From IMG/VR virus record IMGVR_UViG_3300048922_000025, positions 1 to 24,039 of that record: 24,039 nucleotides of DNA. One strand, given 5' to 3'. Position 1 is the stretch's first letter. Each line of letters starts with the position of its first letter. Both the position numbers and the translations under genes were made by a program. A model generated the notes under the pieces. That model did not search any database and was not told where the DNA came from. It saw nothing but the letters and a program-made list of their open reading frames with translations. The DNA is from a virus. Positions 19,766-24,039 of this stretch are shown here, one piece after another.

Positions 19766-19942
19766 AACTGACCTTAATAATGTAATGAATTTATCAAACG
19801 CAATTGCGTGAAGGGCAGTATTACGAATTGAGAAATAACGCGCACCCGCTTTATTTCGGGTGCTTTCGGATATAAGGCATTAGCCTACTGTTGCCGATAT
19901 TTAATGATAAATGGCTTTGTTTTATCCCGTCATAATAGCCGC
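19766..19942. promoter_or_regulatory. Divergent late promoter region
   Basis: This 177-bp gap separates the minus-strand O operon from the plus-strand terminase-portal genes, as the P and O promoters do in P2. It contains a perfect 12-bp palindrome ACGCAATTGCGT (19798-19809) and a 7-bp hairpin GCACCCG/CGGGTGC (19842-19863). Late promoters of this superfamily have an activator site near -55 and a poor -35. I could not find the P2 Ogr site TGT-N12-ACA, so the Ogr-like protein here may read a different sequence, and the palindrome is a candidate. A CATAAT at 19931-19936 is too close to the terminase ATG to be an ordinary -10. Confidence 0.6.
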
Positions 19943-21751
19943 ATGGCTAAATATTCAGATGAAATAAAAGAGGCCGCCCGCGCGTTATATATTAAACGCT
20001 GGCAGCCCAAAGACATTGCGCAGGAATTAAACCTCCCGCCGCGAACGGTTTACCATTGGGCGGACGTCGGCCAGTGGGCATCCCTGTTGCCTGTGGATTC
20101 CGTCGAACATGTGATCGCCCGGCGCATTGACCAGCTGACGCGCCGGGAGAAAAAAACCTCCCTGGAACTGGAAGAACTCCGCGACCTGGTCGCCCAGCAC
20201 GTCAAACTGATGGCCCAGCACAATAAGCACGCCGAGAAGATGGCCGAGATTCAGGCTAAAAGCGTTGTGAGCTATGGCGGTGACGGCTTCGACTGCGCCG
20301 AACCCGGAGAAGGGCGAAAACGGAAATATAAGAAAAACGACGTATCCGGCATCACGGCGGAAATGCTCGACGACTGGGCACGCGAACACCTGTTCGACTA
20401 CCAGCTGCATTGTCGCGAACATAAGGATGAAGACTGGCGGTTTATTCTCAAAAGTCGCCAGGTCGGCATGACCTACTATTTTGCCTGGGAAGCTTTCGAA
20501 GACGCCGTCGTCAGCGGCGACAATCAGGTCTTTTTCTCGGCCTCCCGCGCTCAGTCGGAAATTTTCCGCGAATACATCGTCCAGATTGCCAGCCAGTATT
20601 TCGGCATTACGCTGACCGGGAAAAATATCCGTCTCAGCAACGGCGCGATTCTGCGGTTCTTGTCGACCAATGCCAGCACGGCCCAGGGCTTTAACGGTCA
20701 CCTGTACGGTGATGAAGTGTTTTGGATCCCCAAATTCACCAAGTTACATGAAGTGGCGTCAGCAATGGCGACGCACAACAAATTTCGCACGACCTATTTT
20801 TCGACGCCCAGCGCGAAGACCCACCAGGCGTATACCGTGTGGACGGGGGAAGCGTGGAGCGAGGACGACCCGACACGCAAAGGTAAGGTCTTCCCAAAAG
20901 AGAAGGCCATGCGTGAAGTCGGCATCCGCTGCCCGGATGAAATCTGGCGTTACATCATCACGATGGAAGACGCTATCGAAGGCGGACTCGCCGCCCTGGT
21001 CGACATTGAGCGACTTCGCAACAAGTACAACCCGACTGCCTTCGCCATGCTTTACATGTGCCAGTTCGTGGACAGCAAAGACGCCGTTTTCAAACTGGCG
21101 GCCCTAGTGGCCTGCGAGGTGGACGCGGGCACCTGGGGCGATTATGACCCGACCGCCGCCCGGCCATTTGGTAACCGGGAAGTGTGGGCCGGTTTCGACC
21201 CGTCGCGGTCGGGGGACAATTCCACTTTCGTGATAGTGGCCCCGCCGATTTTTGAGGGTGAGCGCTTCCGCGTTCTCGCTATCTACCAGTGGCAGGGGCT
21301 TAATTTCAGCTGGCAGGCCGAGCAGATAAAAGGGCTAATGCGCCGGTTCAATATCACCTATATCGGTATCGACACGACCGGCATCGGAAAGGGGGTTTTT
21401 GACCTGGTAACCAAGTTCGCGCCGCGTGAAGCCACCGCGATTTTGTACAGCGTGGAGAGTAAAAACCGGCTGGTGATGAAGATGATTGATGTGGTCGAAC
21501 GTAAACGCATCGAATGGGCTAAAGACGCCCAGGACGAAACCAACAAAGAGCGGGCCGAAATTCCGGCCAGCTTTATGGCAATACGCCGAACCACGACGGC
21601 CAGCGGCAACGCGCTGACGTTCGTCGCCGAACGATCGGACGCCACCGGGCACGCGGACGTTTTCTTCGCCATTTCTCACGCCGTGATTAATGAGCCTATC
21701 GACTACGAATTTGACCGCCCGTCTACCTGGGCCTTTGGACAAGCAGCATGA
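19943..21751 (+). CDS. P: Terminase large subunit P
   Basis: 602 residues from ATG 19943 (MAKYSDEIKEAARALYIKRW), the usual family start; a 13-residue upstream extension to 19904 is possible but has no ribosome binding site. Residues 18-45 form a helix-turn-helix (PKDIAQELNLPPRTVYHWAD). An ATPase motor domain follows with a Walker A-like KSRQVGMT at about 170-177 and Walker B YGDE at about 255-258. The C-terminal RNase H-like nuclease shows AGFDPSRSGDNST at about 408, IGIDTTGIGKG and GHADVFFAISHAVINEP. It drives DNA into the procapsid. The portal gene overlaps by 4 nt (ATGA). Confidence 0.94.
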   Translation: MAKYSDEIKEAARALYIKRWQPKDIAQELNLPPRTVYHWADVGQWASLLPVDSVEHVIARRIDQLTRREKKTSLELEELRDLVAQHVKLMAQHNKHAEKMAEIQAKSVVSYGGDGFDCAEPGEGRKRKYKKNDVSGITAEMLDDWAREHLFDYQLHCREHKDEDWRFILKSRQVGMTYYFAWEAFEDAVVSGDNQVFFSASRAQSEIFREYIVQIASQYFGITLTGKNIRLSNGAILRFLSTNASTAQGFNGHLYGDEVFWIPKFTKLHEVASAMATHNKFRTTYFSTPSAKTHQAYTVWTGEAWSEDDPTRKGKVFPKEKAMREVGIRCPDEIWRYIITMEDAIEGGLAALVDIERLRNKYNPTAFAMLYMCQFVDSKDAVFKLAALVACEVDAGTWGDYDPTAARPFGNREVWAGFDPSRSGDNSTFVIVAPPIFEGERFRVLAIYQWQGLNFSWQAEQIKGLMRRFNITYIGIDTTGIGKGVFDLVTKFAPREATAILYSVESKNRLVMKMIDVVERKRIEWAKDAQDETNKERAEIPASFMAIRRTTTASGNALTFVAERSDATGHADVFFAISHAVINEPIDYEFDRPSTWAFGQAA

Positions 21752-22815
21752 CAACCAAACAGCGTAAGCAAAAAAAACAACGTGTCGCAGCAGCTGCGCG
21801 ACCAAAAACGTTCACGCCAGCAACCGGGAAAGGCAGCGTTATCACCTTCGGGGAGCCTGAACCGATACTGACGACGGGCACGGATTACCTGAATATTTGG
21901 TATGAAAATGATTATGACCACTGGAGCCTCCCAATTGACCGCATGGCCCTGGCCCAGTTGCCGAACCTTAACGGCCAGCACGGCGGCGTGCTGTATGCCC
22001 GGCGCAATATGGTGGCCGGTGGCTACCTGGGCGGGGGATTGTCAGCGGATCAAATCGAGCAGATGGCGTTCGACTATCTGCTATTCGGTGACGTGGCCGT
22101 CCTGAAAATCCGCAACGTCTTCGGCGAAGTCATCGACCTGTTGCCGCTGCCGTCGCTGTATTTACGCTGCCGGAAAACGGGCGAATTTGTGGTGTTGCAG
22201 GAAGGGCCATCGCTGGTTTATGACGCTGCCGACGTGGTGTTTTTCAAAATGTATGACCCGCGCCAACAGGTCTACGGACTGCCTGACTATATCGGCGGCA
22301 TCCACTCCGTTTTGCTCAACAGCGAAGCGACTATCTTCCGACGCCGTTATTACAACAACGGGGCGCATATGGGCTTTATTCTCTATGCTAATGACCCGAA
22401 CATCACCGGCGAAGTGGAAACCGAGATTAAAGCCAAAATTGAACAGTCCAAAGGGCTGGGCAATTTCCGCAACATGTTTGTCAATATCCCGAACGGTAAC
22501 CCGGAAGGTGTAAAACTGATACCGGTCGGTGAGGTCAGCGCAAAAGATGAATTTGCGAACATAAAGGGCATCACCGCGCAGGATATTTTAACGGCGCATC
22601 GCTTCCCCTCCGGGCTGGCCGGTATCATTCCGACCAACGGCGCGGTCATGGGAAACCCTGAGACGGCCCGCGATACCTACCGTAAAGACGAGGTGATCCC
22701 TCTACAACGAAAATTTATGAACGGCATCAACTCTGACCGGGAAATCCCTCCACATTTACACCTGAGATTTGACGTTGAAATCCCCGTAATTAACTCTGAC
22801 AAGGGCGAAAAATGA
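21748..22815 (+). CDS. Q: Portal protein Q
   Basis: 355 residues with P2 gpQ family features: ITFGEPEPILTTGTDYLNIW near the start, PLPSLYLRCRKTGEFVVLQE, YGLPDYIGGIHSVLLNSEAT at about 175-195, and ITAQDILTAHRFPSGLAGII at about 275-295. The basic N-terminus (KQRKQKKQRVAAAARPKTF) is typical. Length is close to P2 gpQ (344 residues). It forms the dodecameric entry ring of the capsid. The start overlaps the terminase stop. Confidence 0.95.
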   Translation: MTTKQRKQKKQRVAAAARPKTFTPATGKGSVITFGEPEPILTTGTDYLNIWYENDYDHWSLPIDRMALAQLPNLNGQHGGVLYARRNMVAGGYLGGGLSADQIEQMAFDYLLFGDVAVLKIRNVFGEVIDLLPLPSLYLRCRKTGEFVVLQEGPSLVYDAADVVFFKMYDPRQQVYGLPDYIGGIHSVLLNSEATIFRRRYYNNGAHMGFILYANDPNITGEVETEIKAKIEQSKGLGNFRNMFVNIPNGNPEGVKLIPVGEVSAKDEFANIKGITAQDILTAHRFPSGLAGIIPTNGAVMGNPETARDTYRKDEVIPLQRKFMNGINSDREIPPHLHLRFDVEIPVINSDKGEK

Positions 22816-22871
22816 GCGTAAATAAGTTAAAATCAACCCAATTGTTGGCACTGGCGTGCGGGGTAGTAAAT

Positions 22872-23129
22872 ATGCGCATCTTTAAAATCAATTGTCCGGA
22901 GTGTGGATCACCAGCCATCATCCGAAAATCAGACTGGAAAGATAAAAAGCTGGCTGATTTGTACTGTGCCTGTTCAGAAGTTGAATGTGGTCTAACATTT
23001 GTTTATAACGTATGTTATTCCCACACGTTGAGTCCAAGCGGCCTGACAGGGCAGAAAATGGTAAAGTTCTTGATAGACCAATTGAAACCTGATGAGCGGC
23101 AAATGGCATTCAAACTACTCACTCAGTAA
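22872..23129 (+). CDS. ogr: Ogr/Delta-type late transcription activator
   Basis: 85 residues from the ATG at 22872 (MRIFKINCPECGSPAIIRK), the usual start of this family, with GGGG about 10 nt upstream. A longer frame begins at 22812 in an ATGA overlap with the portal stop and would add 20 residues. The zinc ligands follow C-x2-C-x22-C-x4-C (CPEC, then CSEVECGLTF), the same spacing as in P2 Ogr. LADLYCACSEVECGLTF and SHTLSPSGLTGQKMV are strong family marks. Ogr/Delta proteins contact the RNA polymerase alpha C-terminal domain and activate late promoters. It probably controls both late transcripts of this window. Confidence 0.9.
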   Translation: MRIFKINCPECGSPAIIRKSDWKDKKLADLYCACSEVECGLTFVYNVCYSHTLSPSGLTGQKMVKFLIDQLKPDERQMAFKLLTQ

Positions 23130-23176
23130 CCAGATTCAATTACCAAAAAAACATAAATAATTTTGAGGAATTACAA

Positions 23177-24039
23177 ATGGCTCTGAAAATATTAGGGAAA
23201 ACCATTGACTTGAGAAGCAATGCTCGAGTTATCTATTGTCAAGCTTCATTGGATGATTATTTAAATATTGTTGGCGAAAACTTCGGTGATTATGAAATAC
23301 AACGAAAAAGAGAAAGTCATAAGGCCTATAAGAGATTAAAAAGTGACATTGAAGGTGGGGCTCTTTTACCTTCAATCACTCTTGCGGTTAAACATCATAT
23401 GGTCAAGGGTATTTTAGAGGTTATGGAAGACCCCAAGCTATTATCTGAGAAGTTATCTGCAGCAAATACGGTTGATATTTTAGATGGCTTACAAAGAACG
23501 TATATCATTTCTGACTTAAAAAAAGAAGGCACTGATTTCAAAGAAGGACAAGAGCTATTATTGGAGTTTTGGCTTGAGGAAGATATAAGTAAACTAATTT
23601 ATCGAATGATTGTTTTAAATTCTGGGCAAAAGGCTATGTCTATGAGGCATCAGGTCGAGTTGTTGTTTACCTCATTGCAAGAAACTATAATACAAAGTAT
23701 CCCTGGGATTGAAATATTTAGGGAAAGTGAAACTAAACGACGTACTCAACCTAATAAATATACTCTTAATAACATTGCAGCTTCATATCAGGCTTTTGTC
23801 ACTGGCTCACATGAAACAGATAAAGAAAATTTGGTGGCCCAAAAATTAATTGATGAAAATGCATTTGACTCAACTGAAGGAGAGTTGAGGGAGAAATTCC
23901 AAGACTATCTGCATTATTTAACTTATTTTATTAAATTAGACCAGGTTTGTTGGGATAAATACTCTTCGATTGATGGGTTTACATATATTCAGCCAAATGA
24001 TGGTTCAAGCCCTCAAGAGATTGAATTACGGATTGCTGA
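23177..24039 (+). CDS. Partial DGQHR/ParB-like accessory gene (defence candidate)
   Basis: The frame opens at ATG 23177 after a good ribosome binding site (GAGGA) and runs 287 codons to the window edge without a stop, so the end is missing. Composition is strikingly AT-rich next to the GC-rich phage genes, a sign of recent acquisition. Motifs in order: LLPSITLAV (about 63-71), ILDGLQRTYIISDL (101-114), then IVLNSGQKAMSMRHQVELLF (145-164), helical to the end. The pattern 'PxIxLxV ... DGxQRxxxI ... xNxxQKxx' is that of the DGQHR/DndB and ParB-nuclease-like superfamily; DGLQRT replaces the commoner DGQHRL. DndB-like proteins occur in phosphorothioation-linked and other anti-phage islands. The specific family, catalytic activity and partner genes are unknown; the function is inferred from motifs and place only. 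Confidence 0.6.
   Translation, partial: MALKILGKTIDLRSNARVIYCQASLDDYLNIVGENFGDYEIQRKRESHKAYKRLKSDIEGGALLPSITLAVKHHMVKGILEVMEDPKLLSEKLSAANTVDILDGLQRTYIISDLKKEGTDFKEGQELLLEFWLEEDISKLIYRMIVLNSGQKAMSMRHQVELLFTSLQETIIQSIPGIEIFRESETKRRTQPNKYTLNNIAASYQAFVTGSHETDKENLVAQKLIDENAFDSTEGELREKFQDYLHYLTYFIKLDQVCWDKYSSIDGFTYIQPNDGSSPQEIELRIA

Follow-up and report, generated by a model that had tools for sequence, protein, structure and literature searches.

A probable Dazbog dzbA cargo gene at the gpQ-gpA hotspot of a P2-like phage

The viral record IMGVR_UViG_3300048922_000025 breaks off inside an AT-rich gene that follows the late genes of a P2-like phage, which raises the question of what this gene encodes and what would lie beyond the break. 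We analyzed the whole record of 24,039 bases, hereafter the window, of which this gene is the last. The first-pass annotation had described an open frame cut by the window edge, three motifs in a set order and a base composition unlike that of the phage genes, and all three observations hold. From its ATG start, the frame runs for 287 codons without a stop or a frameshift and then off the end of the record; LLPSITLAV, ILDGLQRT and IVLNSGQKAMS begin at residues 63, 101 and 145; and the GC content is 34.7% (28.6% at third positions), versus 53.1–58.7% (61–72% at third positions) in the phage structural genes and 41.8% in ogr. A likely ribosome-binding site, TGAGGA, is located 8 bases 5' of the ATG (Table 1), and a promoter search of the 47-bp gap between ogr and the gene gave nothing better than chance. 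At the other end of the window, positions 1–833 are low in GC and without a match in phage records, and may represent the prophage end on the host or attachment-site side.

The end-of-contig gene is dzbA of the known two-gene anti-phage system Dazbog (DzbA-DzbB) of bacteria, reportedly described by Millman et al. in 2022, found here in a new location rather than as a new system. The fragment matched the PADLOC DzbA model (PDLC03835) at full strength from its first residues (E=2e-91, 305 bits; residues 3–265 co-linear with positions 2–268 of 393) and no other PADLOC family, which bears out the earlier proposal of an anti-phage gene. The match is not a chance one, and the fragment also hit PHROG 27603 (E=4e-28), whose function is unknown. 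The 12 aligned close DzbA proteins all match the DzbA model and no other, and across the aligned part the window sequence shares 42–65% identity with the remaining close homologues. DGLQRT had been regarded as a departure from DGQHRL. This apparent oddity is explained because D103 to T108 are invariant in all 12 aligned proteins and, by this alignment, DGLQRT is the standard signature of the DzbA family and no deviation; a distant DzbA branch carries DG[LM]QR, and the LN.GQ motif is shared with Dazbog as well. Counting against the Dazbog reading, the window DzbA stands somewhat apart from the branch that best fits the PADLOC model: full-length members of its own branch score about 339–387 bits, versus 485–500 bits for the best-fitting branch, to which the window is 26–28% identical. 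Its P2-like phage carrier is a further difference, as is a record that ends before the partner gene. DzbA was found in 6 of 395 genomes of the Pantoea order (the query genome counted in) and in 2 of 398 of its phylum, and is therefore rare; in the phylum of a Labilibaculum genome the count was 8 of 395. Neither tblastn of phage records nor blastn of E. coli genomes returned a dzbA relative.

The right end of the window reads terminase, portal, ogr, dzbA, so the gene does lie just beyond the portal and the late activator, as had been claimed (Table 1). P2-like phages carry a defense hotspot between gpA and gpQ (Rousset et al. 2022, PMC9122126), and the main text of that paper does not mention Dazbog. 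A close ogr homologue was present in 46 viral loci (45 contigs), and in 42 of the 46 the replication gene gpA (by Pfam Phage_GPA) lay beyond a variable insert of 13–3251 bp with changing genes. Among these inserts, there were matches to the PADLOC models for a methyltransferase, Thoeris ThsB, PD-T4-2, SoFic, PifA, AbiLi and NsnA as well as to the candidate families PDC-S06, PDC-S20 and PDC-M50A, and to Pfam HEPN, KAP NTPase, PemK, Fic and putAbiC. The view that this is an exchangeable accessory site is thus well founded, and comparison of the same locus in relatives marks the gene as accessory, not core: neither DzbA nor DzbB was found in relatives L004–L122. In Salmonella phage SW5 (Peduoviridae, Irrigatiovirus) the ogr-gpA interval contains a DNA methylase, in an E. 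coli prophage it contains an unnamed 2.8-kb gene, and Dam-type and cytosine methylases are common beside gpA in the relatives of the window. Judged from ogr as the anchor and from the position of gpA in relatives, the dzbA site is the gpQ-gpA hotspot of P2, the genomic place of old and tin past the portal (here also past ogr) and before gpA, with a different cargo. Dazbog thereby joins the cargo observed at this hotspot.

Table 1 Positions of features at the right end of the window and of dzbAB loci adjoining an MvaI/BcnI-type system
Feature	Position	Strand	Evidence or remark
Terminase ATPase subunit gpP	19904..21751	+	E. coli prophage terminase annotation, DNA 78.9% identical
Portal protein gpQ	21748..22815	+	Pfam Phage_portal E=3e-14; 78 viral loci found with it
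ogr/delta-like late activator (anchors the accessory site on the left)	22812..23129	+	Pfam Ogr_Delta E=1e-14
Likely ribosome-binding site before dzbA	23163..23168	+	Sequence
dzbA (Dazbog), 5' three quarters	23177..24037	+	PADLOC DzbA E=2e-91
DGLQRT core motif (ILDGLQRT, residues 101-108), DzbA signature	23477..23500	+	D103-T108 invariant in 12 DzbA
dzbAB + MvaI/BcnI-type system	L131 3766-9358		One strand, collinear array
dzbAB + MvaI/BcnI-type system	L194 2972-8568		One strand, collinear array
dzbAB + MvaI/BcnI-type system	L132 3761-9388		
dzbAB + MvaI/BcnI-type system	L129 3086-8268		
dzbAB + MvaI/BcnI-type system	L003 8540-14482		

Loci L004–L049 together hold a rich set of ogr-gpA inserts, many with matches to defense models and some probably without, which are candidate defense genes. 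One viral contig, IMGVR_UViG_3300031110_000610, has two ogr copies, one in each of L006 and L049, and this suggests tandem P2-like elements or a duplication.

The earlier suggestion that the gene may work alone is almost certainly wrong, given the constant presence of dzbB as the next gene in close homologues. In 12 of 12 (from Pantoea, Erwinia, Pseudomonas, Acinetobacter, Moritella, Alphaproteobacteria, a cyanobacterium, Bacteroidota and a viral contig), the start of dzbB falls between −25 and +6 bp relative to the dzbA end, and dzbB lies directly 3' of dzbA in 4 further homologues, giving 16 of 16. Among viral relatives, L002 is the nearest (67% identical to the window over 264 residues); it encodes a DzbA of 379 residues and, after a 3-bp gap, a DzbB of 383 residues (PADLOC DzbB, PDLC03836, E=2e-46), and a Moritella plasmid (L003) carries the same pair, with a DzbA 52% identical to that of the window and a DzbB matching at E=3e-50. 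The dzbB gene is therefore very probably past the contig end, and the Dazbog system is incomplete as seen, since the record ends before it. The fragment covers 287 of about 380–400 codons and, in the alignment, the window end falls at a length-variable loop of the DzbA family; the last 100 or so codons of dzbA, and with them the whole of dzbB, are thus expected past position 24039. The sequence past this point was sought, as had been advised, but two scans by exact match returned no viral contig that overlaps the end. Overall, we assign a probability of about 0.92 to the reading that dzbA of Dazbog is cargo of the gpQ/ogr-gpA hotspot of a P2-like (Peduoviridae) phage, probably enterobacterial, and that dzbB most probably follows about 0.3 kb past the contig end.

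Dazbog also occupies another place in this phage group. In L002 and in its chromosomal counterpart, the Pantoea locus L123, dzbAB lies directly behind the CI repressor (Pfam-confirmed in L002, called by position in L123), with CII and gpA of a different P2-like phage alongside. This site resembles the second, cI-integrase type of hotspot in PMC9122126; no integrase was seen in the examined DNA of L002 and L123. With the window gene at gpQ-gpA and these two behind CI, one defense system is found at two sites in one phage group.

A different kind of neighbor accompanies dzbAB in five of the 16 close loci (L003, L129, L131, L132 and L194; small counts, with the five from two phyla and three of them from one phylum), where no more than about 25 bp separates dzbA from a large C5-cytosine methyltransferase, with an MvaI/BcnI-type endonuclease in the vicinity (Table 1). 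Outside L003, the endonuclease was identified by 31–45% identity to the annotated Moritella enzyme. The linkage spans Gammaproteobacteria, Alphaproteobacteria and Bacteroidota, and in L131 and L194 the methylase, dzbA, dzbB and the endonuclease are collinear on one strand. Dazbog could accordingly belong to a larger unit as a second line behind type II restriction-modification, which in this case the host or other genes of the phage would provide. Against this stand the 11 loci without such a neighbor in the examined DNA and the lack of a visible restriction system in the window; moreover, the same restriction system is found on plasmids of Vibrio and Acinetobacter with no dzbAB, which shows that the two can be separated. 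We regard the larger unit as an unlikely explanation of the window gene. A literature search found no paper that joins Dazbog with MvaI/BcnI-type restriction.

It is less probable still, indeed quite improbable, that the gene is decayed or partial cargo that has lost dzbB and has no function in this phage. The record does show no dzbB, ending as it does inside dzbA, and such loci do decay: dzbB of L128 is split by a frame break, and gpA of L002 is broken. However, the window frame is open throughout its length, its invariant motifs are intact and it is preceded by a ribosome-binding site.

The first-pass annotation placed the protein in the DGQHR (DndB-like) superfamily, a claim that survives as remote kinship and fails as an assignment. 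The NCBIfam DGQHR/DndB model TIGR03187 gave E=0.0013 with 18.5 bits, far below its cut-off of 58.85, and the DGQHR motif of that model is absent from the window protein, which has DGLQRT instead. Pfam GmrSD_N (DUF262, PF03235) also scored far below its gathering cut-off (E=0.0066, 17.0 bits vs 33.2). In profile comparisons by hhalign, DzbA aligned with 19 DUF262 proteins at E=0.0019 and with 20 DGQHR proteins, for which the DG..R and LN motifs were in register, at E=0.014, versus E=0.21 for a control of three HEPN proteins; the kinship is therefore remote but plausible. With the DGQHR and DUF262/GmrSD models both below cut-off, DzbA is a distant relative and no DndB. Its three motifs follow the order of those in DGQHR/DndB proteins and align with them in register, and it differs from these proteins in its partner, which is DzbB and not Dnd proteins. 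With the DUF262/GmrSD_N proteins (GmrSD, BrxU, SspE, PD-T4-2) it shares a weak profile similarity and a DG-x-Q-R motif like their DGQQR, the NTP pocket motif of DUF262 proteins (PMC10952713), whereas its own DGLQRT differs from DGQQR and full-length DzbA relatives are without the DUF1524 nuclease half. That the gene encodes a stand-alone DndB/DGQHR-type protein, a regulator or helper of phosphorothioate modification, is largely refuted and highly improbable: the sub-threshold match and the motifs in register speak for it, but 18.5 bits for TIGR03187 compare with 305 bits for DzbA, and the close relatives consistently have a dzbB partner.

A ParB-like fold had been proposed too, and is only hinted at by the predicted structure of DzbA (pLDDT 78). 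Its top three Foldseek matches in the PDB were indeed to ParB N-domains or to a protein of ParB type, but with non-significant E-values of 0.23–0.37 (TM 0.22–0.25); nothing in the PDB was significant for DzbA by Foldseek, and a PDB sequence search gave no match.

Returning to DzbA as the first component of Dazbog, published reviews indicate how it may act. The DUF262-type gene of Dazbog is required for phage resistance and may recognize methylated DNA (PMC10952713), and the system is activated by phage methylases (PMC12409349). Most likely, DzbA would be a sensor of phage-modified DNA and DzbB the effector. In a lysogen, the prophage would express DzbA and DzbB; DzbA, with a putative DUF262-like nucleotide-binding pocket around DGLQRT, would sense an incoming phage by methylated or modified DNA resulting from a phage methylase and would then presumably switch on DzbB, which would stop the infection. 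We propose that, because DzbB would halt the infection, the lysogen and its prophage would survive competition from other phages.

DzbB itself is without a recognized domain. In L002 (9144–10295), it contains an R-x4-H motif (R335...H340, both invariant) within residues 329–345, YWIYR.R..IAHN.IGE, where a long helix ends, and this motif recalls HEPN ribonucleases. This prompted us to consider DzbB as a HEPN ribonuclease, but Pfam gave no HEPN match, hhalign against a three-sequence Apea-HEPN set was negative (E=0.82) and Foldseek gave no support, and we keep a HEPN-like DzbB only as a lead. Foldseek against the PDB returned nothing significant for DzbB, and a PDB sequence search returned only three weak matches to unrelated proteins.

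The linkage of dzbAB with MvaI/BcnI-type systems offers a testable idea on what Dazbog guards against. Tentatively, and with more doubt than confidence, we suggest that in this DzbA branch Dazbog partners type II restriction, such that the enzyme would cut unmethylated phage DNA and methylase-carrying escapees would trigger DzbAB. If true, the recurrent methylase-dzbA-dzbB-endonuclease arrays would record a two-layer defense in their gene order, and a P2-like phage with dzbAB as cargo would need either to avoid methylase genes of its own or to tolerate them.

Two further dzbAB neighborhoods were observed in Pseudomonas. A distant dzbAB pair (L134, 4004–6378) lies on a 26-kb replicon with filamentous-phage-type genes (TspB-related, major capsid protein, DUF5447). 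In Pseudomonas caspiana (L125, 6001–13040), dzbAB adjoins an AIPR abortive-infection gene (Pfam E=2e-93), and this region is likely a defense island.
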